NCBI RefSeq assembly: GCF_013423955.1
Contig: NZ_JACCKX010000001.1
Coordinates: 3,782,001-3,846,000, forward strand
Reading direction: 5' to 3'
DNA: 64,000 nt
Origin: Ottowia beijingensis
GTDB lineage: Bacteria; Pseudomonadota; Gammaproteobacteria; Burkholderiales; Burkholderiaceae_C
The position numbers and the translations under genes were made by a program. Below are positions 28,879 to 43,169 of the stretch, in pieces (position 1 is the first letter of the stretch; each line of letters begins with the position of its first letter). The notes below the pieces were generated by a model, which did no database searches, had not been told where the DNA came from, and saw only the letters and a list, made by a program, of their open reading frames with translations.

Positions 28879-30536
<1,658 letters not shown>

Positions 30537-30547
30537 CCACAAACAAT

Positions 30548-30622
30548 GGGAGTATATGGTTTTAGCGCCCTACTGGCGGGCTCTAGAGCATGACTACCTT
30601 GGGAGTATATTTTTCAAACCTT
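30548..30622. repeat. Diverged repeat with duplicated GGGAGTATAT
   Basis: GGGAGTATAT occurs twice, around TTTTAGCGCCCTACTGGCGG. It looks like a strongly diverged copy of the palindromic repeat between aidB and the SDR. Confidence 0.45.
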
Positions 30623-30644
30623 ACCACTGAATGGAGACCGATTG

Positions 30645-31556
30645 ATGATCAGCGACTTCAAAGGCAAGACCGCCGTGTTGACCGGCGCCGGCTCGGGCTT
30701 CGGCCTGGAGTGCGCGCGCATCGCCGCGCAGCGCGGCATGAACGTGGTGCTGGTCGACATCCAGCCCGATGCGCTGGCCGCGGCCGAGGCCGAGATCAAG
30801 GCCCTGGGCGTCAAAACCCTGGCGCGCCGCGTCGACGTCAGCAAGGCGCCGGAGATGGACCAGCTGGCCCGGCAGGTGCAGGAAACATTCGGCGCGCCGC
30901 ACTTCGTCTTCAACAACGCCGGCGTGGCGGTGGGCGGCCTGGTCTGGGAGAACACCGTCAAGGACTGGGAATGGGTGCTGGGCGTCAACTTGTGGGGCGT
31001 CGTCCACGGCGTGCGCGGCTTCACGCCGATGATGCTGGAGGCGGCCAAGGCCGACCCGGCGTACCAGGGCCACATCGTCAACACCGCCAGCATGGCCGGG
31101 CTGCTGACGCCGCCCAACATGGGCGTCTACAACGTCAGCAAGCACGCCGTGGTGGCGCTGACCGAGACGCTGTACCAGGACCTGAAGCTGGTGACCGACC
31201 AGATCAGCGCCAGCGTGCTGTGCCCGTACTTCGTCGCCACCGGCATCAGCCACAGCGAGCGCAACCGCCCCGGCGACATGCCCGCGGCCGAGATGACCGC
31301 CTCGCAGCGCATCAGCCAGGCGCAGACCGACAAGGCCGTGAGCAGCGGCAAGGTCACCGCCGCCGAGGTGGCGTACAAGGTGTTCGACGCCATCGCGCAC
31401 GACCAGTTCTACGTCTTCAGCCACCCCAGGGCGCTGGGCAACGTCAAGTCGCGCACCGATGCGATCGTCGCCATCCATAACCCACCCGACCCGTTTGCCG
31501 AACGGCCGGAGATCGGCGTCGGCCTGCGCGCGGCGCTGCGTGGTCAAGCGGCTTGA
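30645..31556 (+). CDS. Short-chain dehydrogenase/reductase
   Basis: A 303-residue SDR. Cofactor motif TGAGSGFGLE near residue 14, Asp at the end of beta-2 in VLVDIQPDALAA (suggesting NAD preference), FNNAGVAVGG, catalytic Ser in VNTASMAGLLTPP and the YNVSKHAVVAL Tyr/Lys pair. The extended C-terminus is typical of this subfamily, often annotated only as an SDR oxidoreductase. ATG 30645 is preceded by a GGAGA site; the TTG one codon earlier is less likely. Substrate unknown. Confidence 0.9.
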   Translation: MISDFKGKTAVLTGAGSGFGLECARIAAQRGMNVVLVDIQPDALAAAEAEIKALGVKTLARRVDVSKAPEMDQLARQVQETFGAPHFVFNNAGVAVGGLVWENTVKDWEWVLGVNLWGVVHGVRGFTPMMLEAAKADPAYQGHIVNTASMAGLLTPPNMGVYNVSKHAVVALTETLYQDLKLVTDQISASVLCPYFVATGISHSERNRPGDMPAAEMTASQRISQAQTDKAVSSGKVTAAEVAYKVFDAIAHDQFYVFSHPRALGNVKSRTDAIVAIHNPPDPFAERPEIGVGLRAALRGQAA

Positions 31557-31575
31557 GGTCGCGGCCCAGGGTGCG

Positions 31576-31642
31576 TTAACTATGGTTTGGATAGCTGCTT
31601 GCGCTCGCCCGCTTGCGCTGCAGCCCGATTAGACCAATTTCT
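31576..31642. repeat. Palindromic intergenic repeat
   Basis: TTTGGATAGCTGCTTGCGCT followed by GCTTGCGCTGCAGCCCGATT, between the SDR and lipid-kinase genes. Confidence 0.75.
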
Positions 31643-31712
31643 TCTGATGGGCCGATAGGCATTCGCGCCATCGGCCGACAGCCGCCGACGCACGCGGCGC
31701 CTACAGTGCCCC

Positions 31713-32654
31713 ATGCCGTCGGCACCAGCCCCTTTGTTCCTCGTCTTCAACGCGGCGTCCGGGCGCGGCGACACGCCCGATGTCAGCCGGCACGTGGCCG
31801 AGCGCCTGCGCGCCGCCGGCCGGCGGGCTGAATGCTTCGTCGCCCGCCAGCCGGGTGAACTGGGCGCCGTCATCGGTCGCGCCGTCAACGCCGCCCGCGA
31901 TGCGCGCGGCATCGTGGTGGCGGCGGGCGGCGACAGCACGCTGAACGCTGTCGCGCAGGCGGTGTGGAACGCCGGCCTGCCGATGGGCGTGCTGCCGCAG
32001 GGCAGCCTCAACTACTTCGGCCGCACGCACGGCATGTCGACCGATCTGGATGCCGCGGTGGACGCCTTGCTGGGCGCGCGCGTGCAGCCGGTGCCGGTGG
32101 GCATGGTGGGCGAGCGACTGTTTCTGGTCAACGCCAGCGTCGGCCTGTACCCGCGCCTGCTGGAAGCGGGCGGGCAGCGCCATGGCCGCAGCCGGCTGGT
32201 GGCCTGGATCGCCGGGCTGGGCACGCTGCTGCGCGGCCGCAGCCTGATGACGCTGGAGCTGCACGACGGCACCGAAACCCGCGTGGTGCGCACGCGCACG
32301 CTGTTCGTCGGCCACAACGATCTGCAGCTGCGCGCCCTGGGCCTGCGCGAACCGCTGGCCGCCGAAGCAGGGCGCCTGCTCGCCATCACCCTGCCGCCGG
32401 CGCCGCCGCTCGCCACGCTGTGGCGAATGCTGCGCGGCAGCATCGGCCGGCTGGACGGTGCCGCGCGCGTGGACAGTTTCTCCGTCGATCGGCTGGTGGT
32501 GCAGCCAGGCCGGGGCAGTGGCGGCATGCAGCTCGCCATCGACGGCGAGCTTGCGCACTTGCCGGCGCCGCTGGTGTTTCAGCTCGCGCCCCGGCCGCTG
32601 CGTCTGCTGGTGCCCACGGCCGCGCGCGGACTGCCCGGTCTGGCCGCGCAGTAG
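31713..32654 (+). CDS. Diacylglycerol/sphingosine-kinase-like lipid kinase
   Basis: A 313-residue protein of the DAGK catalytic family. The nucleotide loop reads VVAAGGDSTLNAVAQAVW, where the usual GGDGT has Ser in place of the second Gly. LGVLPxGxxN appears as MGVLPQGSLNYFGRTHG. The C-terminal beta-sandwich ends with MQLAIDGELAHLPAPL, the family D-G-E segment. Such enzymes phosphorylate lipid hydroxyls at the membrane. No transmembrane segment is seen. Convergent with the next gene; only 11 bases separate the stops. Confidence 0.82.
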   Translation: MPSAPAPLFLVFNAASGRGDTPDVSRHVAERLRAAGRRAECFVARQPGELGAVIGRAVNAARDARGIVVAAGGDSTLNAVAQAVWNAGLPMGVLPQGSLNYFGRTHGMSTDLDAAVDALLGARVQPVPVGMVGERLFLVNASVGLYPRLLEAGGQRHGRSRLVAWIAGLGTLLRGRSLMTLELHDGTETRVVRTRTLFVGHNDLQLRALGLREPLAAEAGRLLAITLPPAPPLATLWRMLRGSIGRLDGAARVDSFSVDRLVVQPGRGSGGMQLAIDGELAHLPAPLVFQLAPRPLRLLVPTAARGLPGLAAQ

Positions 32655-32665
32655 CACCCGCGGCT

Positions 32666-33925
32666 TCAGCGCGGTACCGTGTTGAGCCGGCGCTGCCATT
32701 CGTCGGGCAGCAGGTCGAACAACGGCGTTGGGTCGCGGTACATCATGGTGGAGAGCGAGCGCGTGTCCAGCTGCGGCAGGTTGTTGGCCGTGTCCAGCCA
32801 GGCCAGCTGCGACATCCAGGCGATGTTGATCGTGCCATCGGGCTGCGGGCGGGATGTGATCAGCGCCAGCATGCGCTTGGCCGCGGCACTGCCCTGGGCG
32901 GCAGCGGCCTGGTACAGCCGCATGGCTTCCGCGTAGTTGGCAGGCACCACGACGCCACGGTGCGCGCGCTGGGCTCTTTCCAGCAATCGATCGGCCTCCG
33001 TCGCGGCGGCCGACGCCGGCCGCGCATCCTTCAGATCGAGCAGTTTCAGATTGGCCGCGGCCGCGCGGGAGTGCGGCGCCGCGGCCTGCAGATGTTGGCG
33101 CGCGCTGCGCAGATCGCCGTTGACGATGGCCTCCAGCCCCAGCTCTATATGCGCCTGCGTATCGCCCTCGGCTGCGGCGCGTTCCAGCATCTGGCGCAGG
33201 GGCAAGCGCAGGCTGGTCACGCCCTGGGGGTCACTGGAGCGCACGGCAAGGGGTTGTGCGCGGCTCTCCAGCACCCATTCCAGATAGAGCGCCCGGGCAC
33301 GGTGGTGCGCACGCAGTTTGTTGATGGCCTGCCGCGCGGCCGACGTGTCGGGCGGCCCCGCGCAGCCATCAAGTGCGCACCAGGCCAGGCCGGCGTTGGC
33401 CAGCGGCTGGCGTCCGAAACGCGTTGCGCGCTCGAACCACATCTGCGCCGAGGCCGTCGAGCGCGGCCCTGCGCCGCCGTGCAGGTCGATCAGCCCCAGC
33501 GTCCAGGCGGCATTGGCCGCCGCATTGGTGCTGCCGAAGCCCGACCGGGGTTGTGCCTGGCGGCGCAGCAGGTCCAGATCCCTGCGCACGGCAGGATCGG
33601 CCAGAAGGTTGCTCGTCTGACGCGCCTCCGGCAGCGCGGGCGATGCCGGCGCACGCACAGGCCCCAGTTGAGGGTCGGCAGCTCGCTGAGAAGGATTGGC
33701 CACCGGATCGGCTGGCGGCAACGGGTTGCGCGGCAAGCTGACGGCCGGCGCCTGACCGCTGGGCGCCTGGACATCCGGCACCCTTGCGGTCGGCGCCTGG
33801 ATCTCAGGCAGCGTTGCCGCCCGCGCTGCTGCCTGTACCGATACGCAGGCGATCAGCAGGCTCGTGGCGACCATGCCCATGCGCCAGTCCGCGCCGCGCG
33901 GGTGGCGCATCCGGCGGGCCCGCAT
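32666..33925 (-). CDS. Exported Sel1/TPR-like repeat protein
   Basis: About 419 residues. It has a signal-peptide-like N-terminus (MGMVATSLLIACVSVQAAAR after a basic lead), then a Pro/Ala-rich linker (residues ~40-95). Helical repeats follow in the Sel1 style, e.g. AAWTLGLIDLHGGAGPRSTA, QMLERAAAEGDTQAHIELG and EAMRLYQAAAAQGSAAAKRM. Sel1/TPR solenoids are scaffolds for protein contacts. It is the last gene of the minus-strand secretion-like operon, 35 bases after the CsgG-like gene, so it may assist that system. The start at 33925 is inferred; an internal Met (MGMVA) is a possible alternative. Confidence 0.7.
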   Translation of the reverse strand: MRARRMRHPRGADWRMGMVATSLLIACVSVQAAARAATLPEIQAPTARVPDVQAPSGQAPAVSLPRNPLPPADPVANPSQRAADPQLGPVRAPASPALPEARQTSNLLADPAVRRDLDLLRRQAQPRSGFGSTNAAANAAWTLGLIDLHGGAGPRSTASAQMWFERATRFGRQPLANAGLAWCALDGCAGPPDTSAARQAINKLRAHHRARALYLEWVLESRAQPLAVRSSDPQGVTSLRLPLRQMLERAAAEGDTQAHIELGLEAIVNGDLRSARQHLQAAAPHSRAAAANLKLLDLKDARPASAAATEADRLLERAQRAHRGVVVPANYAEAMRLYQAAAAQGSAAAKRMLALITSRPQPDGTINIAWMSQLAWLDTANNLPQLDTRSLSTMMYRDPTPLFDLLPDEWQRRLNTVPR

Positions 33926-33960
33926 GTTGACGCTGCGGTGCTCATGGCCCGTGCGTCGCC

Positions 33961-35625
33961 TTACTGGGCGGCGCCGTTCTTGCCCGCTGCGGCTGCGGCA
34001 GCGGGGCGCGCCGGCAGGATGCGCCATTCCAGGGTCTGCGCGGCCATGTTGCCGGCACCCACCGCGGCCTCGAATTGCTCACGCAAGGCTTGCAGCGACG
34101 CGACGCCCTGCATGCGGGTCAGCGCGGGCACGTTCAGCTCAGGCGGCATCTTCAGCATCGGGTCTTCGTTGGTGGCCACGCACATCAGCGCTTCCGAGCC
34201 CTTGGCGCCTGCGGTCAACACGAACGCCGGATAAGGCACCATCCAGTCGGGCAGCCGGATGGCCTGATTGGCCGACACCAGCGATTCGGGACTCAGCATG
34301 TTGGGCTGGATCTTGACGATGTTGCCATTGGCGTCGTTGATGTAGCAGAACAGGTGTGCGGCACGCGAAATCGTCGCCGACGCAAAGATGTGCGTCCCCG
34401 CCTCGAAAGCCGTGCGGTCCCGGCTGGTGTTCTCGATCTGCAGATCGATCGTGAAGGGTTCGATCTTCGTCTGGCCAGCACTCAACTCGGCCCATCCGAC
34501 GCGCGCCAGCTGCCCGTCTTCGCCCACGGCCACGAAATCGCGCAAAGCGCGCTCATAGACGGGGAAGTCGATCTCGCCCGTGACCACCGCACCCACATCG
34601 GCCTGGAAGCGGCCGACCGCTTCGCGCAGCAGGGCGTGGCCCGGTGGCAGTGCCGTTTCGGACGCTGCGAGGTAGCCTCGGCTCGCCAGATAGCGCTGCA
34701 CCATGCGCGAGCGCGTGGTGCGGTCGCCCTCGTCGTACCACACGCGCAGCTGGCGCTGGAATTCGGGGTGGGTGTTGTCCAGCGTCAGGCAGCGCCAATA
34801 GGGCAGGTGGGTCCACTTGCCCGCCAGCTCGATCGCGGCCAGCTCCACCAGGGTGCGCATCGCCGCGCCCGAGCCCTGCACGAGGTCGCGGCCGACGTTG
34901 AACTGCACACCGTAGGTACCAATGCGGCCGGCCAGATCCAGCCCCTGGCCCGAGGTGCCCATGATGACCTCGTTGGCCGAGTCCAGCCCTGGGATCAGCG
35001 TGCGCGTGCGAAAGTCGCCCAGGTGCATCTCCAGCCCGATGATGGTGGCGGCGCGGCTGCGGTCGTAGCCGGCTTCGATGCGCGCGCCCGAAAGCCCTGC
35101 ACTGTGCCGGTTGCTCAGCACGTTCTGATCGACGAAGGAAATGGCACCGGACACATACAGCGCCGGACGCTGCAACTCCATCTGGTTGTTGTTGAGCAGG
35201 ATGGTGGTCAGGTTCTGCACCGTGTCCTGGCGCGCGATGTCGACCTCGAAATCGACGTAGCGGAACGCATTCGACTGGCGCGACATCTGCGACAGCGCGG
35301 TGATCACCATTTCCTTGGCCGCCACCGGCACGCGCCCCGAGAAATCGGGGATGTACTTGCTGGTGATCAGCGTGGTCGGCACCTCGGCGTCGCGCATCAT
35401 CCGGTCCATGCAGACCAGCGAGTCGCTGAAGCTGGACATCGAGCGGACCGGCCGCGTGGCGGGCCGGTCGGTGGCACTGGCGTAGGACTGGAAGAGGGCA
35501 TCCTCCTTGGGCGACAGCGGGGTGGCGCAGCCCGAGAGGACGGCGACCGCGGCCAGAGCGCAGAACAGCAATGTCCGCGCTTTCCCTCCGCGTTCGGCAG
35601 CGCCCGAGAAGTTGCCGTGTCCCAT
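33961..35625 (-). CDS. CsgG-like outer-membrane secretion lipoprotein with PG-binding and DUF4384 domains
   Basis: A 554-residue lipoprotein: hydrophobic signal LFCALAAVAVLSGC with lipidated Cys at about residue 33. Residues ~60-280 read like a CsgG/HfaB channel protein, including DVARQD-like strands, FVDQNVLSNRHSAGLSGARI and AMRTLVELAAIELAGKWTHL. Residues ~300-365 resemble a peptidoglycan-binding module (AVGRFQADVGAVVTGEIDFP). Residues ~390-500 resemble DUF4384 (THIFASATISRAAHLFCYIN). CsgG proteins form the outer-membrane pore for curli export. Start by strong RBS GGAGGGAGGA. Assignment rests on remembered family patterns; no search was run. Confidence 0.68.
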   Translation of the reverse strand: MGHGNFSGAAERGGKARTLLFCALAAVAVLSGCATPLSPKEDALFQSYASATDRPATRPVRSMSSFSDSLVCMDRMMRDAEVPTTLITSKYIPDFSGRVPVAAKEMVITALSQMSRQSNAFRYVDFEVDIARQDTVQNLTTILLNNNQMELQRPALYVSGAISFVDQNVLSNRHSAGLSGARIEAGYDRSRAATIIGLEMHLGDFRTRTLIPGLDSANEVIMGTSGQGLDLAGRIGTYGVQFNVGRDLVQGSGAAMRTLVELAAIELAGKWTHLPYWRCLTLDNTHPEFQRQLRVWYDEGDRTTRSRMVQRYLASRGYLAASETALPPGHALLREAVGRFQADVGAVVTGEIDFPVYERALRDFVAVGEDGQLARVGWAELSAGQTKIEPFTIDLQIENTSRDRTAFEAGTHIFASATISRAAHLFCYINDANGNIVKIQPNMLSPESLVSANQAIRLPDWMVPYPAFVLTAGAKGSEALMCVATNEDPMLKMPPELNVPALTRMQGVASLQALREQFEAAVGAGNMAAQTLEWRILPARPAAAAAAGKNGAAQ

Positions 35626-35690
35626 GATGTCCTCCCTCCGCTCTGGCGAGCCTCTCAGTTGCTGGTGCTGGCGGCGTGCCGCGCAGCTTC

Positions 35691-36128
35691 TTATTTGCAG
35701 ATGGTGACCACGTCGCCGCGCAGCACCGCGATCTGGTCTCCACCACTCATGCCGTAGCGGCCTGAAGGGCCGGCTGCGGTAGGGGCGATGGTGTTGCTCG
35801 CCACTTCCGTGGTGCAGGTGCGCTGCAGGGCGTTGCCGGTCTGCCGGCTGACGACATCGCGCTCGGTTTGGACAGTTCCGCTGCCGCCTTCGAGCGCGGA
35901 AAAAGCCTTGGCTTCATAGCGCGATACCTTGGCCTGCAGCCAGGACGGAATATCCGTTTCGTTTTCGATTTGCCCCGAGGGCTGAAACGGCGGAGCGGGC
36001 AGGGCCAGGTAGCTGACCTGACCGTTCAGCATGATCGGGTCCGAGCCGGGGGCGAACTGCGCCCAGCCGCTCTGCGCAGCGCAAAGCAGAACCAGGCCAG
36101 GGGCGATGGACAGGAGCTTGAGCTTCAT
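35691..36128 (-). CDS. Small exported protein of unknown function in CsgG-like operon
   Basis: A 145-residue protein with a clear signal peptide (MKLKLLSIAPGLVLLCAAQS, cleavage likely after GWA). The mature part has two cysteines, in RTCTTEVASNTIAP and at the C-terminal VVTICK, which could form a disulfide, and a Gly-rich strand GRYGMSGGDQIAVLRGDVV. I do not recognise the family. It lies between the repeat protein and the CsgG-like gene, so it could be a minor fibre subunit, nucleator or chaperone, analogous to CsgB/CsgF or HfaA; this is inference from position only. Confidence 0.72.
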   Translation of the reverse strand: MKLKLLSIAPGLVLLCAAQSGWAQFAPGSDPIMLNGQVSYLALPAPPFQPSGQIENETDIPSWLQAKVSRYEAKAFSALEGGSGTVQTERDVVSRQTGNALQRTCTTEVASNTIAPTAAGPSGRYGMSGGDQIAVLRGDVVTICK

Positions 36129-36151
36129 GGCAATCCCCTTTCGACAAGAAT

Positions 36152-36191
36152 AAAAACGGCGGAACCGGGACGGGGGCCACCGGTTCCGCCG
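36152..36191 (-). terminator. Intra-operon terminator after the repeat-protein gene
   Basis: Perfect 12-base arms CGGCGGAACCGG and CCGGTTCCGCCG (36157-36168 and 36180-36191) with an 11-base loop, then TTTTTA on the minus strand. It lies between the repeat protein and the next gene of the same operon. Confidence 0.9.
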
Positions 36192-36214
36192 TGCGCTTCA
36201 GGCCCTTTGATCGC

Positions 36215-36727
36215 TCATTCGCAGGTCAGGCAGGCGTTGTTGCTGGAGAAGTTCTGCACCGCCCTGGATCCGGTGCCAGTGGCCTTGGCAGCCAGGAAGG
36301 CGCCCTTGCCGAGGACGATCTGCAGTTGGTCGGCGCCGACGCCGACCGAGCCCACGTTGCTGGCCAGGTTGTTGTTCGCATACGAGTCGCTGGCACTTGC
36401 GTAAGCCAGCACGCCACTGTTCTTGAGCGCAGTGATTTGGGTCGACTCGACGCCCTGGTCGATCAGCACGCCGCTGGTGTTGCTGGACATGTTGTTGACG
36501 GCCTTGGAGTCGGCGCCACTGGCCCAGGCGATGGAAGCGGTGTTTTTCAGCGCGGTCACCTGGATGGTCGGGCCCTTCAGGACGATGTCGTGGGCGCACA
36601 GGTCGCAGGCCTCAGGCGTCGGCGAAGGAGACGGAGCCGGTGGATCCTTCGGCTTAAAACTTGCGTCTTGGGCCATCGCAGACGTGGCGACAAACGCAGC
36701 GGTCAGGAAAAGCAGTTTCGCGTTCAT
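36215..36727 (-). CDS. Secreted three-repeat protein flanked by CxxC motifs (candidate fibre subunit)
   Basis: A 170-residue exported protein, signal MNAKLLFLTAAFVATSAMAQ, then a Pro/Ser linker and CDLC. Three imperfect repeats of ~37-41 residues follow: QVTALKNTASIAWASGADSK, QITALKNSGVLAYASASDSY and QIVLGKGAFLAAKATGTGSR. Each is followed by an Ala-Asn/Ser-rich end such as AVNNMSSNTS, ANNNLASNVG or AVQNFSSNNA. The protein ends CLTCE, so a CxxC pair caps each end. Gln/Asn/Ser spacing recalls curli-type beta-solenoid repeats, though the family is not recognised. RBS GGAGG precedes ATG 36727. The first and probably most transcribed gene of the operon, given the terminator after it. Confidence 0.78.
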   Translation of the reverse strand: MNAKLLFLTAAFVATSAMAQDASFKPKDPPAPSPSPTPEACDLCAHDIVLKGPTIQVTALKNTASIAWASGADSKAVNNMSSNTSGVLIDQGVESTQITALKNSGVLAYASASDSYANNNLASNVGSVGVGADQLQIVLGKGAFLAAKATGTGSRAVQNFSSNNACLTCE

Positions 36728-37224
36728 GATGAGATCCTCCAAAGGTGTGGTGAGACACGGATCCGGAGCGGCGGGCGAATTCCAGCAGTTCCGGGGGTGA
36801 CTCCGCCGCATCCGGCCTCCTGTTTTTCGGTGCTCGTCATGCGGTGTCGTCGGGGTGCAGTGTCCTGCGCATTCAGCCCGACACCAATCGCTACAAATGG
36901 ATACGTCGTATGGTGGACATGTGGCATGTGTTTGGGGGCTCCAACCTCGCGGATCATGGCTCACTACAACAGCGCGCAGCTCCTGCTTGGATAGCATTCA
37001 ACGGATTTCGATGGGGTAGTAACAAAAAGTGTTTATTGCAAATATTGGAAAAGAAGCGCAGGATATCCCTCTTCGATGTTGTGACAAAGCCTAAGTTTTT
37101 GTGCAAAGTTCACAACTTGTGCGCAGGAGATGTTTACAAACTCCGCGTTCAGCTCCCGAGTCGCAGGCGTCGCAGGCTTGGAGGGGTTACAGATGTTTCG
37201 AAACGCAGGCGCCGGGGGATCGAC
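36728..37224. promoter_or_regulatory. Divergent regulatory region between fibre-like operon and response regulator
   Basis: 497 bases without a convincing gene, lying between divergent genes. About 37010-37140 is clearly AT-richer than its surroundings (AACAAAAAGTGTTTATTGC, TTGTGACAAAGCCTAAG). It contains a GTTCACAACTTGTGC imperfect inverted repeat near 37108 that could be an operator. Promoters were not assigned precisely. Confidence 0.5.
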
Positions 37225-38017
37225 ATGAGCACAACCAACATGGACTGGAGGGACCCGGCGTCACCGGGCCGTGGGGGCAAGGCAGTTGACAAGCCTGCAG
37301 CACCGATGACTTTCGGATCGAGCTGGCCCGACTTCCTCATCGGCCAGCCCGATCAGCCGGTGCAGGTGCTGCTGGTGGACGACGACCCCACATGCGCCGC
37401 GTGGTGTCGCAGGAGTTGCTGACCGACCCCGCATCCACCTGGTGGGCCAAGGGGCGTCGCTGCGCGAGGGCAAGCGCCTGATTGCGCTGCACGAGTTCGA
37501 TGTCATGCTGGTCGACCTGAACCTGGGCGACGGCACCGGGTTCCAGCTGATCGAATACATGAAAAGCATGCGGCCGGTGGCCGAGGCGGTGGTGGTGTCG
37601 GCCATGGAAGACGAAGAGCACGCCATTCACGCGTTCGAATTGGGCGCCACGGGTTATCTGATCAAGAACTCCTGGTTCGGCAGCTTCCCGCAAGCGGTGC
37701 TGCAGGTGGTCAACGGCGGGGCGTCGATCACACCCAACCTGGCGCGCCGGCTGATGAAGCGGCTGGATGGCAGCCCACGGGCTGCCGGCGTGCCCGCGCA
37801 TGCCAGCCGCGGCGCGGCCTCGGGCGAGAAGCTGTCGGATCGCGAGCGCGAGATCCTGCGGCTGGTGGCCACGGGCCACACCAGTTGCGAGATCGGCAAG
37901 CGCCTGGGCATCAGCGACCAGACGGTGAACACGCACATCAAGAACATGTACCGCAAGCTGCAGGTTCGAACGCGAGCGCAGGCCGTGAACCTGGCGTCGA
38001 TGCGTGGCCTGCTGTAG
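37225..38017 (+). CDS. NarL/LuxR-family response regulator (two apparent frameshifts)
   Basis: About 264 residues after repair. The receiver domain has the acidic pair VLLVDDDP, the phospho-acceptor Asp in FDVMLVDLNLGDGTGF, the switch Ser in VVVSAMEDEE and Lys in YLIKNSWFG. The C-terminal LuxR HTH reads LSDREREILRLVATGHTSCE and GISDQTVNTHIKNMYRKLQV. Two C runs (near 37394 and 37427) are one base short each and split the gene. ATG 37225 is the likely start. Paired with the histidine kinase 74 bases downstream and divergent from the fibre-like operon, its likely target. Confidence 0.87.
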
Positions 38018-38091
38018 TGAGCGCTGTCGACGCGCAGGCCGTTTGACGTCGCGGCAGTGCCGGCCATGACCGGCAGGAGGGCCGGATAGCC

Positions 38092-39375
38092 ATGTCCATC
38101 ATGTGGCCGGTGCTGTTGCTGAGCCTCGGCCTGGCGGGCTACGCCCTGCTGGGCTGGCGCCAGCGTGGCGATACGCGCGATCTGCGCTATGGCCTGGCGC
38201 TGCTGGCCTGGTCCGCCCTGCTGGCGGCCGGCGAACTGGGGCGTCTGGGTGCCCCGGATGAAGTGGTGCGGGCCGCCACACGGGGCAGCTATCAACTCAC
38301 GATCCTGGCCGTGTCGGCCTTCCTGATGGCCTGGGTGCGGGGCCTGGGCTGGGGCGACAAGGTGCTGATGGCCAGTCAGGCCGCGCTCGGCCTGTTTCTG
38401 GCGCCGCTGCAGGCGGCCGCGCTGCCGGCCGGATGGGGCCAGGCGTGGTTCTGGGTCAATGCGCTGGGCATCACCGCCCTGGTGCTGCGCCTGGCGCACG
38501 CCATCTGGCGCCGCACCGATGCCGAGAGCTGGATGGTGCTGCTGGTGGCCGTGCTGGGCCTGGGCGTGGTGCTGACCGACCTGCGGCAGGCCGCTGATGG
38601 GCCGGCACTGGTGTCGGTCTCGCACTACTTCTTTGCGGTGGCGCTGTTCGTACTGTGGCTGGCGCTGACGCAGCGCGTCGGCAACTCGCGCAGATCGATC
38701 GGCGAGGGCGGCTCGTCTGCGCACCAGGTGCAACGCCAGCTGGCCCAGGACCTGCACGATGGCGTGGGCTCGCAGCTGACCACCCTCATCTCGGCGCTCG
38801 ATGCCGGCTCGCCCGAGCAGCGCGCCACCGCCGCCACGCTGCAGCAATGCCTGCTGGAGCTGAAGCTCCTGGTGGATGGCATCAACGAGGAGGGCTCGGT
38901 CGTCAGTCACCTGGCCAGCCTGCGCTATCGCATGCAGCCGTTGCTGGCTGCGGCTGGCATGGATCTGCAATGGCGCCTGGTCGATGAGGAGCAGCTCGAG
39001 CGCGCGCAAGGGCCCGCCGCGCGCCAGGTGCTGCGCGTGGCGCAGGAGGCGCTGGCCAACGCCGTGCGGCATTCCGGCGCCGACACCGTGGTGCTGAGCT
39101 GCTGCCACATGAACAGCGCCGACGCGCTGCTGCTGGAAATCGCCGACAACGGCAAGGGCATGGCGTACGAGCGCTATGCGCGCACCGCGTCGTCGGGCGA
39201 ACCGCACCGTGCGTCGCACGGGAAAGGCCTTTCGGGCATGGTGCTGCGCGCCAGCCAGATGCACGGCCAGCTGAGCGTGGAAAGCGCGCCGGGCGAGGGC
39301 ACGCGCGTGCGCCTGCAGGTGCCCATGGCGGCGCTGATCCAGCCGACGGCGGAACGGCGCCGCGCCCCGGCCTGA
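38092..39375 (+). CDS. Membrane sensor histidine kinase (HisKA_3 / NarX type)
   Basis: A 427-residue kinase. About six or seven hydrophobic helices fill residues 1-195 without a large periplasmic domain, so the signal is probably sensed within the membrane. The phospho-acceptor is in [17 protein letters not shown] (His about 222). The HATPase domain has the N box [13 protein letters not shown], the G1 box IADNGKGM and the G2 region [12 protein letters not shown]. It should phosphorylate the adjacent NarL-type regulator. Start 38092 follows a CAGGAGG site 12 bases upstream. Confidence 0.9.
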
Positions 39376-39475
39376 TCCTGCCCGTGCCGCCTGCGGCGCG
39401 CGGCATCTGCTGTGGCAAACTTCCCCGCTTTTTCGACTCGCCGGGCGGCGCCATGCCGCCGCGCGGCACGCACGC

Positions 39476-41980
<2,505 letters not shown>

Positions 41981-41982
41981 GC

Positions 41983-42035
41983 CTGCATCGCTTGTCTGGT
42001 CAGCGCCAGCAGCTATTGAAACGAGAGCGAAAAAC
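41983..42035. repeat. Palindromic intergenic repeat
   Basis: CCTGCATCGCTTGTCTGGTC, AGCGCCAGCAGCTATTGAAAC: a full copy immediately after the tex stop codon. Confidence 0.85.
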
Positions 42036-42085
42036 AGATTCGGTCCAGCATCCGGCACCGTGGGGCGCCGAATGCGCGGTGGTCA

Positions 42086-42292
42086 TCAGGCCGGCTTGGG
42101 CCAGGTGGCCAAAGGTACCGAGGGCACAGCCACGGTCGGCAAAGGCACCGTGGGCAGTTCGCGCGGCACTTCATCGTCGGGGTCGCTCTCGGGTGCGTGG
42201 CGCGTCATCGCGCGAAGCGCCGTGGTGGCATGGGCCGCGCCGGTCATCAGCGACAACCAGCGGACGGTGAATTGGGTCAAGAGCTGGTGCAT
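42086..42292 (-). CDS. Small hypothetical protein
   Basis: A possible 68-residue protein starting MHQLLTQFTVRWLSLMTGAA with a GGAGA site about 9-13 bases before its ATG. The N-terminal half is amphipathic/hydrophobic (possibly membrane-associated) and the C-terminal half is Pro/Val-rich (PTVPLPTVAVPSVPLATWPK). No family recognised. It is divergent from the glutathione-transferase gene. Support is the ribosome site and the protein-like composition only. Confidence 0.45.
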   Translation of the reverse strand: MHQLLTQFTVRWLSLMTGAAHATTALRAMTRHAPESDPDDEVPRELPTVPLPTVAVPSVPLATWPKPA

Positions 42293-42476
42293 GGTTTGTC
42301 TTCTCCATACATCGGCAGAAAGGGCGGTAGTCGGAACCTGTTCCGCCCCGCGTGGTGGGGCATGGTGCGCCACGTCCCCACTATAGGTGCGAGGCCGCAC
42401 GAAGGCCAGAGTTCCCGCCCCGCCGGTGGGGGCGTGTTGTGACCAGCTGTGTCGCGCGCTTTGCCAGAATGCCCGC

Positions 42477-43169
42477 ATGACGCCACGCCCCGTGCTCTAC
42501 ACCTTTCGCCGCTGCCCCTACGCCATGCGCGCCCGCTGGGCGGTGCAGGTGTCGGCGCTCGACGTGGAACTGCGCGAGATCACGCTGCGCGCCAAGCCCG
42601 CCGCCATGCTGGTCGCGTCGCCCAAGGGCACGGTGCCCGTGCTGGTGCTGCCGGGTGGCCAGGTCATCGACGAAAGCTTGGACGTGATGCGCTGGGCGCT
42701 GGCGCAGCACGATCCCGAGGGCTGGCTGACGCCCGCGCAGGGCACGCTGGCCGAGATGCTGGCCCTGATCGAGGCCTGCGAGCGCGACTTCAAGCCGCAC
42801 CTCGACCGCTACAAGTACCCCGCGCGCTACCGCGCCGAGTGGGGCGGGGCGCCTGACGCGGGTGACAGCGATCCGTTGGCGCGCGCCTTTGCGGCGCAGC
42901 ATTTCGATGTTGCCCAGGGCTTTCTGTCGCTGCTGGCGGTGCGGCTGGAGGGTGGTGCGGCACCGCGTTACCTGTTCGGTACCCGCCCCGCGCTGGCCGA
43001 CTTCGCCATCGCGCCCTTCGTGCGCCAGTTCGCCCGCCACGACGCGGCACGCTTTGCACAGCAGACGGCGCCCGCGCTGTCGCAGTGGCTGGGCGCCTTG
43101 CTCGCGCGGCCCGATTTTGAGGCCGTGATGGCGCGGCAAGCAGTGTGGGCCGACACCGGCGCGCGCTAA
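42477..43169 (+). CDS. Glutathione S-transferase / glutaredoxin-2-like protein
   Basis: A 230-residue GST-fold protein. The N-terminal thioredoxin-like domain opens PVLYTFRRCPYAMRARWAV with a CPYA active-site motif, followed by SPKGTVPVLVLPGGQVIDES, where the cis-Pro and the glutathione gamma-Glu site (ES) sit. The C-terminal all-alpha domain ends RPDFEAVMARQAVW. The single-Cys CPYA motif suggests monothiol chemistry such as deglutathionylation. ATG 42477 was chosen because the family N-terminus begins there. Confidence 0.87.
   Translation: MTPRPVLYTFRRCPYAMRARWAVQVSALDVELREITLRAKPAAMLVASPKGTVPVLVLPGGQVIDESLDVMRWALAQHDPEGWLTPAQGTLAEMLALIEACERDFKPHLDRYKYPARYRAEWGGAPDAGDSDPLARAFAAQHFDVAQGFLSLLAVRLEGGAAPRYLFGTRPALADFAIAPFVRQFARHDAARFAQQTAPALSQWLGALLARPDFEAVMARQAVWADTGAR

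Follow-up and report, generated by a model that had tools for sequence, protein, structure and literature searches.

A cassette of six genes in Ottowia beijingensis probably constitutes a self-contained surface-fiber system of the CsgG class, with local two-component control and a subunit of FapC-like design; we assign this reading a probability of roughly 0.6. The cassette occupies positions 32666–39375 of the window (the whole stretch of 64,000 nucleotides that was analyzed). Four genes for exported proteins lie on the minus strand and are transcribed in the order repeat protein, small Cys-containing protein, multidomain lipoprotein, and Sel1/TPR protein, and genes for a NarL-type response regulator and a histidine kinase lie divergently on the plus strand. 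These are the six genes named in the first-pass annotation (a three-repeat protein, a small exported protein, a lipoprotein, a Sel1/TPR protein, a regulator, and a kinase), and all are found near the places given there. The related but distinct fiber or surface-protein export system that it had proposed is supported: the lipoprotein matches CsgG structurally, the fold predicted for the repeat protein is solenoid-like, and the genes are linked in relatives, and the exported protein may well form a fiber.

Genomic Setting

The window corresponds to positions 3782001–3846000 of contig C1 in an assembly of 4.29 Mb in four contigs (completeness 89.25, contamination 5.2). Two other contigs carry 16-kb copies of the region that are 99.7 and 99.9% identical to it (3 mismatches each, 25 and 12 gaps), and 10 of the 25 gaps and 10 of the 12 gaps fall in homopolymer runs of three or more. 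This near-identity, together with the gaps in homopolymers, points to redundant contigs with base-level error. In the second and third copies, located on the small contigs C3 (93743) and C4 (55698), the lipoprotein gene is among those that show extra frame breaks.

The neighboring ORFs of the cassette appear housekeeping-like by eye. A gene named tex by eye (39476–42386) adjoins the cassette and is spread over different frames; it includes a GC-rich, repeat-like stretch near 40230–40420 that is either an insertion or a sequence error.

Conservation of the Cassette in Relatives

A lipoprotein-based scan of bacterial genomes identified 34 loci (identity 53–81%), mostly in named Burkholderiales and including the Comamonadaceae genera Acidovorax, Comamonas, Polaromonas, Simplicispira, and Xenophilus. 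The order and strand of the operon genes that are present are kept in all 34 loci, and all four genes occur together in 30; individually, the Sel1 gene is found in 33 loci, the small-protein gene in 32, and the repeat-protein gene in 31, with absences confined to loci that a contig end interrupts. The regulator gene is present in 28 of the 34 loci and is divergent and upstream in 27 of these (downstream in L031); in the six loci without it, the contig breaks off at most ~2 kb upstream of the lipoprotein gene. A profile search recovers the kinase in 26 loci, and two loci (L014 and L031) have a regulator with no kinase beside it. The kinase occurs in two forms in the eight relatives inspected, a long form (416–434 aa; four relatives) and a short two-helix form (268–282 aa; four relatives). 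All six genes are present in each of the three same-genus genomes that were fetched. The set of repeat-protein, CsgG-like, and NarL–kinase genes is thus linked in relatives, and the check for conserved linkage proposed in the first-pass annotation went in its favor. All of these counts start from relatives of the lipoprotein and hold for loci that contain it.

Flanking genes of the cassette in the window also occur at several of these loci, for example Tex (L008, L010, L012, L023, L026, L033, L039) and an SDR gene (L008, L009, L024, L027, L033), a pattern that suggests inheritance of an ancestral position. At many other loci, none of the six tested flank stretches is found.

The Lipoprotein and Its CsgG/HfaB-Like Domain

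The lipoprotein gene (33961..35625, minus strand) encodes 554 amino acids, comprising a CsgG/HfaB-like domain (residues ~30–282), a PG_binding_1 domain (307–354), and DUF4384 (407–487), and its product is the proposed outer-membrane export pore. The lipobox cysteine (C33) is invariant in a 33-row alignment, and the lipobox pattern is found in 31 of the 34 loci. DUF4384 and PG_binding_1 are each matched in all 33 family members (Pfam, E ≤ 0.1), PG_binding_1 of the window protein scoring 21.6 bits, just under the 23-bit cut-off.

The N-terminal domain is a relative of CsgG and HfaB, a relation supported by two routes, profile and fold. The NCBIfam HfaB model matches 28 of the 33 family members at E ≤ 0.1 (best 1.4e-7), the window protein reaching 17.6 bits, far from the curated cut-off of 300; the Pfam CsgG model (PF03783) matches none of the 33 at the same threshold. 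Profile–profile comparison of the N-terminal part with ten HfaB-like proteins yields a probability of 96.0% (P 4.1e-9, 219 columns), compared with 0.1–0.7% in nine control comparisons, and the alignment spans nearly the whole HfaB profile (4–253 of 259). When the lipoprotein model is searched against PDB folds, ranks 1–25 are all chains of CsgG or of curli complexes (probability 1.00, E 4.8e-8 to 5.3e-5, 210–260 columns), and these matches cover nearly whole CsgG chains in membrane-bound and pre-pore entries alike. FlgT, which has a non-pore role and shows that domains of the CsgG fold are not confined to pores, follows at rank 26 as the first non-CsgG match. A search of the lipoprotein sequence against solved structures gives no match at E ≤ 1. 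The first-pass description of this protein as CsgG-like is therefore borne out by fold for CsgG and by profile for HfaB.

Given this relation, the lipoprotein may form an outer-membrane pore. Its AlphaFold2 model is of moderate confidence (pLDDT 65.9, pTM 0.40) and is low in parts of the long hairpins expected to form the barrel, and a beta-moment scan of these hairpins for membrane strands is not decisive.

Excerpts of an earlier survey of curli describe CsgG as part of a larger family with paralogues (PMC3521004). The O. beijingensis genome itself encodes another protein matched by the CsgG model (C1:1983293; L109, L122), which is lipoprotein-like, scores 21.0 bits against a cut-off of 20.8, and extends over two frames. 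This second, borderline protein indicates that a CsgG-like domain alone does not name a fiber system. It was not taken as a curli locus, as it lies elsewhere in the genome and is split between frames, and no curlin repeat was found genome-wide.

The Repeat Protein

The first gene of the operon (36215..36727, minus strand) encodes an exported protein of 170 amino acids with three repeats of ~39–41 residues, the proposed fiber subunit. The motif A.[QNS][NS].[ASG][ST]N occurs three times in this protein and two to five times in each of 32 other copies, compared with a mean of 0.04 or less per protein in shuffled sequences (maximum of 2 in any shuffle). The spacing of the motif is exactly 39 residues in 50 of 75 intervals (full range 37–47), and the number of repeats in the 32 copies is three in 24, four in two, five in five, and two in one, the last being a paralogue. 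In a 23-row alignment of three-repeat members, each repeat has invariant Gln (Q56/Q97/Q136), Ala (A76/A117/A156), and Asn (N83/N124/N163) columns. A CxxC motif is found at residues 41 and 166 of the window protein, and 26 of the 32 copies have one close to the C terminus.

The structure model is all-beta, each repeat contributing four strands (block-mean pLDDT 89–98 over the repeats), and the protein is accordingly predicted to be a beta-solenoid with a 39-residue period, in agreement with the solenoid suggested at first pass; each repeat may form one cross-beta layer. The two top PDB fold matches of the model are the FapC fibril (E 0.005, probability 0.35) and the CsgA fibril (E 0.07, probability 0.04), with poor superposition (TM-scores 0.09–0.17, rmsd 15.4 and 14.5 Å) and with many weak matches to ice-binding or antifreeze proteins close behind; the likeness of the predicted fold to amyloids is therefore suggestive only. 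A profile search of PDB sequences finds no FapC at E ≤ 1 and no CsgA, the curlin repeat model (PF07012) matches none of the 23 aligned members, and the protein has no sequence match to HfaD. The resemblance to amyloid subunits is thus one of design, and is possibly convergent.

The Small Cys Protein and the Sel1/TPR Protein

The second gene (35691..36128, minus strand) encodes an exported protein of 145 amino acids with two invariant cysteines (C105 and C144) and a conserved C-terminal end, and no convincing family was found for it in Pfam or NCBIfam. From its position and residue pattern, we guess that it is a minor subunit, nucleator, or cap. Homology between this protein and the repeat protein is not claimed (hhalign 5.6%).

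The exported Sel1/TPR-repeat protein (32666..33925, minus strand) has an uncertain start codon, the longest ORF running from 34027. Sel1 is detected in it at E 3.4e-4, below the Pfam cut-off, and scores above that cut-off in 9 of 10 relatives tested; the protein is a putative periplasmic helper.

The Two-Component Pair and an Intergenic Box

The regulator gene (37225..38017, plus strand; start chosen by eye) is divergent from the operon, as noted at first pass, and is not one open frame: the receiver-coding part shifts frame at ~37390–37440, and the HTH part is intact. In the two near-identical copies on C3 and C4, the start of the receiver is also out of frame, in different ways, whereas the receiver start and the remainder are in a single open frame in all three same-genus genomes. 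Because the three assembly copies are broken differently and the same-genus genes are intact, a sequence error is the likely cause, and a real lesion is less likely. The adjacent gene (38092..39375, plus strand) encodes a membrane histidine kinase of 427 amino acids, as the first-pass annotation had it, with HATPase_c above the cut-off and a HisKA_3 match of 16.9 bits, under the 24-bit cut-off.

The divergent intergenic region contains a GGTAGTAAC box (37015..37023, plus strand), a tentative candidate for the regulator site. When up to 3 mismatches are allowed to a 13-base seed derived from the same data, 13 of 32 sequences (the window and relatives within L013–L041) have the box 201–324 bp upstream of the gene for the repeat protein, always oriented the same way; the seed is reached anywhere in 16 of the 32 sequences and by 6.5% of shuffles. 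A search for regulator sites by dyad counts gave nothing usable. At an HfaB-like locus (L120), a LuxR-type regulator-like ORF, recognized by eye, lies upstream of the HfaB-like and HfaD-like genes; the cassette may therefore not be the only CsgG-class set with a neighboring regulator.

Comparison with Curli, Hfa, and Fap Systems

The csg genes have a divergent layout. Like curli (CsgA–G of Escherichia coli), the cassette combines a CsgG-fold lipoprotein as pore candidate, an exported, repetitive, beta-rich subunit of variable repeat number, and a divergent LuxR/NarL-type DNA-binding regulator; excerpts of two papers report that curli subunits also differ in repeat number (PMC3521004, PMC10192328). 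The repeats of the cassette are 39 residues long, whereas curlin repeats are about 23 (23 ± 5 on average in the excerpt of PMC10192328), and most copies of the cassette subunit have a CxxC motif, unlike CsgA as described in the accessible part of PMC6173800. The cassette also differs from curli in the fusion of the pore candidate to PG_binding_1 and DUF4384, in the Sel1/TPR gene, and in a regulator of the receiver type that is served by its own kinase; in a comparison of the downstream portion of the regulator with the CsgD model, only the HTH part matches, at 51.1 of the 250 bits that define the CsgD type. CsgE, CsgF, and the curlin repeat have no match at E ≤ 1 in the O. beijingensis genome (assembly 89% complete), and ordinary curli are rejected on these searches.

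HfaABD of Caulobacter is alike in that HfaB is the nearest pore relative found and in that one pore gene is accompanied by two candidates for exported surface proteins. The two small proteins of the cassette, in contrast, have no detectable homology to HfaA or HfaD (hhalign 0.7–17.1% against four HfaA-like and four HfaD-like proteins; no match to the Hfa models in NCBIfam), the HfaB model (264 positions) lacks the C-terminal half of the lipoprotein, and the cassette has a two-component pair and a Sel1 gene and no adjacent holdfast genes that were recognized. Membership in a true Hfa system is rejected on the HfaA/HfaD comparisons and the HfaB cut-off. In the searches made, no CsgB/E/F-like or HfaD-like genes could be recognized here, in line with the first-pass annotation.

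The subunit of Fap fimbriae (FapC, Pseudomonas) resembles the repeat protein in design. Excerpts on FapC describe three imperfect repeats, each of which forms one cross-beta layer and has conserved Asn and Gln residues (PMC12392863), as well as a CxxC that lies outside the core, is conserved, and is absent from CsgA (PMC6173800). Three imperfect repeats per subunit, conserved Asn/Gln, and CxxC are also features of the cassette, and FapC ranks first, though weakly, among the PDB folds matched by the repeat protein. The two systems differ in that the repeat protein has no sequence match to FapC, in that Fap uses the FapF pore (PMC6173800, in part) whereas the cassette has a CsgG/HfaB relative, and in that FapC linkers are about 30–260 residues long (PMC12392863, in part) whereas the cassette repeats follow on at ~39.

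A Model for Export and Assembly

In the proposed mechanism, signal peptides would take the repeat protein and the small Cys protein to the periplasm, and the lipoprotein would form a CsgG/HfaB-like oligomeric pore in the outer membrane, anchored or gated from the periplasmic side by its fused peptidoglycan-binding and DUF4384 parts. A single lipoprotein would thereby do work that curli divide among separate accessory proteins. The Sel1/TPR protein may guide or hold the unfolded cargo, presumably the repeat protein. Outside the cell, the 39-residue repeats would stack as layers of a beta-solenoid with Asn/Gln ladders and polymerize, with the small Cys protein starting or capping the polymer, and the divergent kinase/regulator pair would turn the operon on.

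The lipoprotein and the two small proteins could instead form a short surface complex that holds polysaccharide to the cell, as HfaABD does in Caulobacter. We consider this unlikely: the CsgG-like domain is nearest to HfaB in NCBIfam, the combination of one pore with two small surface proteins resembles HfaA, HfaB, and HfaD (PMC6707917, in part), and CxxC also occurs in HfaD-like proteins of two Hfa loci (L111, L112), but the small proteins score poorly against HfaA and HfaD, the lipoprotein is far below the HfaB cut-off, and no polysaccharide genes were recognized by eye among the main ORFs at 30000–42500. FlgT and Lpo-type lipoproteins have scaffold-type roles. A comparable role for the CsgG-fold domain, tied to peptidoglycan, with the repeat protein as a periplasmic or surface coat exported by another route, is less probable still, since the matches run over nearly the entire CsgG chains and HfaB profile, even though FlgT is the first non-CsgG fold match and the peptidoglycan-binding part is matched throughout the family. 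The ice-binding and antifreeze proteins among the weak fold matches below rank 2 raise the question of whether the repeat protein is a soluble solenoid that binds, e.g., ice or sugar and does not polymerize. That appears very improbable for a protein whose two best fold matches are amyloid fibrils, whose repeat number varies from 2 to 5, and which accompanies a CsgG-class protein at the loci examined (all found via that protein). The reading of the cassette as a surface-fiber system with its own export pore is therefore preferred.

Distribution and Significance

The lipoprotein is encoded in 36 of 250 genomes of the family (E ≤ 1e-50) and in 20 of 398 genomes of the phylum (E ≤ 1e-8), O. beijingensis being counted in both, and its distribution is patchy even inside the family. 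Among eight loci with strong matches outside the family (L076–L083, one a 5-kb contig), small-protein-like neighbors are found in four and repeat-like neighbors in four (E ≤ 0.01), the regulator is matched in none, and a kinase-like frame is present in one (L081). In L077 and L078, a gene for an OmpA-family protein (Pfam OmpA, E 8e-19 and 4e-20) lies close to that of the lipoprotein; such a protein is also seen by eye at some other loci and is annotated near the lipoprotein in two Azospirillum plasmids. Elements of a simpler version of the cassette are distributed over various of the loci L076–L083, L123, and L124, namely short repeat proteins, a small Cys protein, a CsgG–DUF4384 lipoprotein, an OmpA-family protein, and a protein of ~100 amino acids with a conserved CW motif, seen by eye. 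The O. beijingensis genome has a paralogous set at C1:2145365 (L005, L069; 38% identity), in which the subunit has two repeats and another repeat-like frame follows downstream.

No description of this gene set was found in the openly accessible literature, as represented by titles, starts of abstracts, and excerpts. Likewise, no paper in the open literature was found to treat DUF4384 together with CsgG, and papers on DUF4384 alone concern other topics by title or start of abstract. The cassette is best regarded as belonging to a known kind of system, in which a repetitive surface protein is exported by a CsgG-class route, with its cargo family, its pore architecture, and its regulator setting it apart. 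More broadly, and at somewhat less than even odds, it may represent another class of functional amyloid that depends on CsgG-type export, in addition to curli and HfaA. In this class, a FapC-like subunit (an Asn/Gln ladder, a CxxC tail, and one cross-beta layer for each 39-residue repeat) would be served by a CsgG/HfaB-type pore with its own peptidoglycan anchor. The class would be spread through Burkholderiales of the Comamonadaceae type; other Pseudomonadota would have a simpler form of it, in which an OmpA-family protein is the partner and a response regulator is not linked.

If so, many environmental bacteria would make a surface fiber that is invisible to curli searches, as neither the Pfam CsgG model nor the curlin-repeat model detects the cassette. 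A connection would emerge between two amyloid designs that have until now been associated with separate pores, and CsgG-type pores would prove to tolerate quite different cargo. The lipoprotein would then be a CsgG-fold protein with a built-in wall anchor, useful for work on biofilms and for nanopore engineering.
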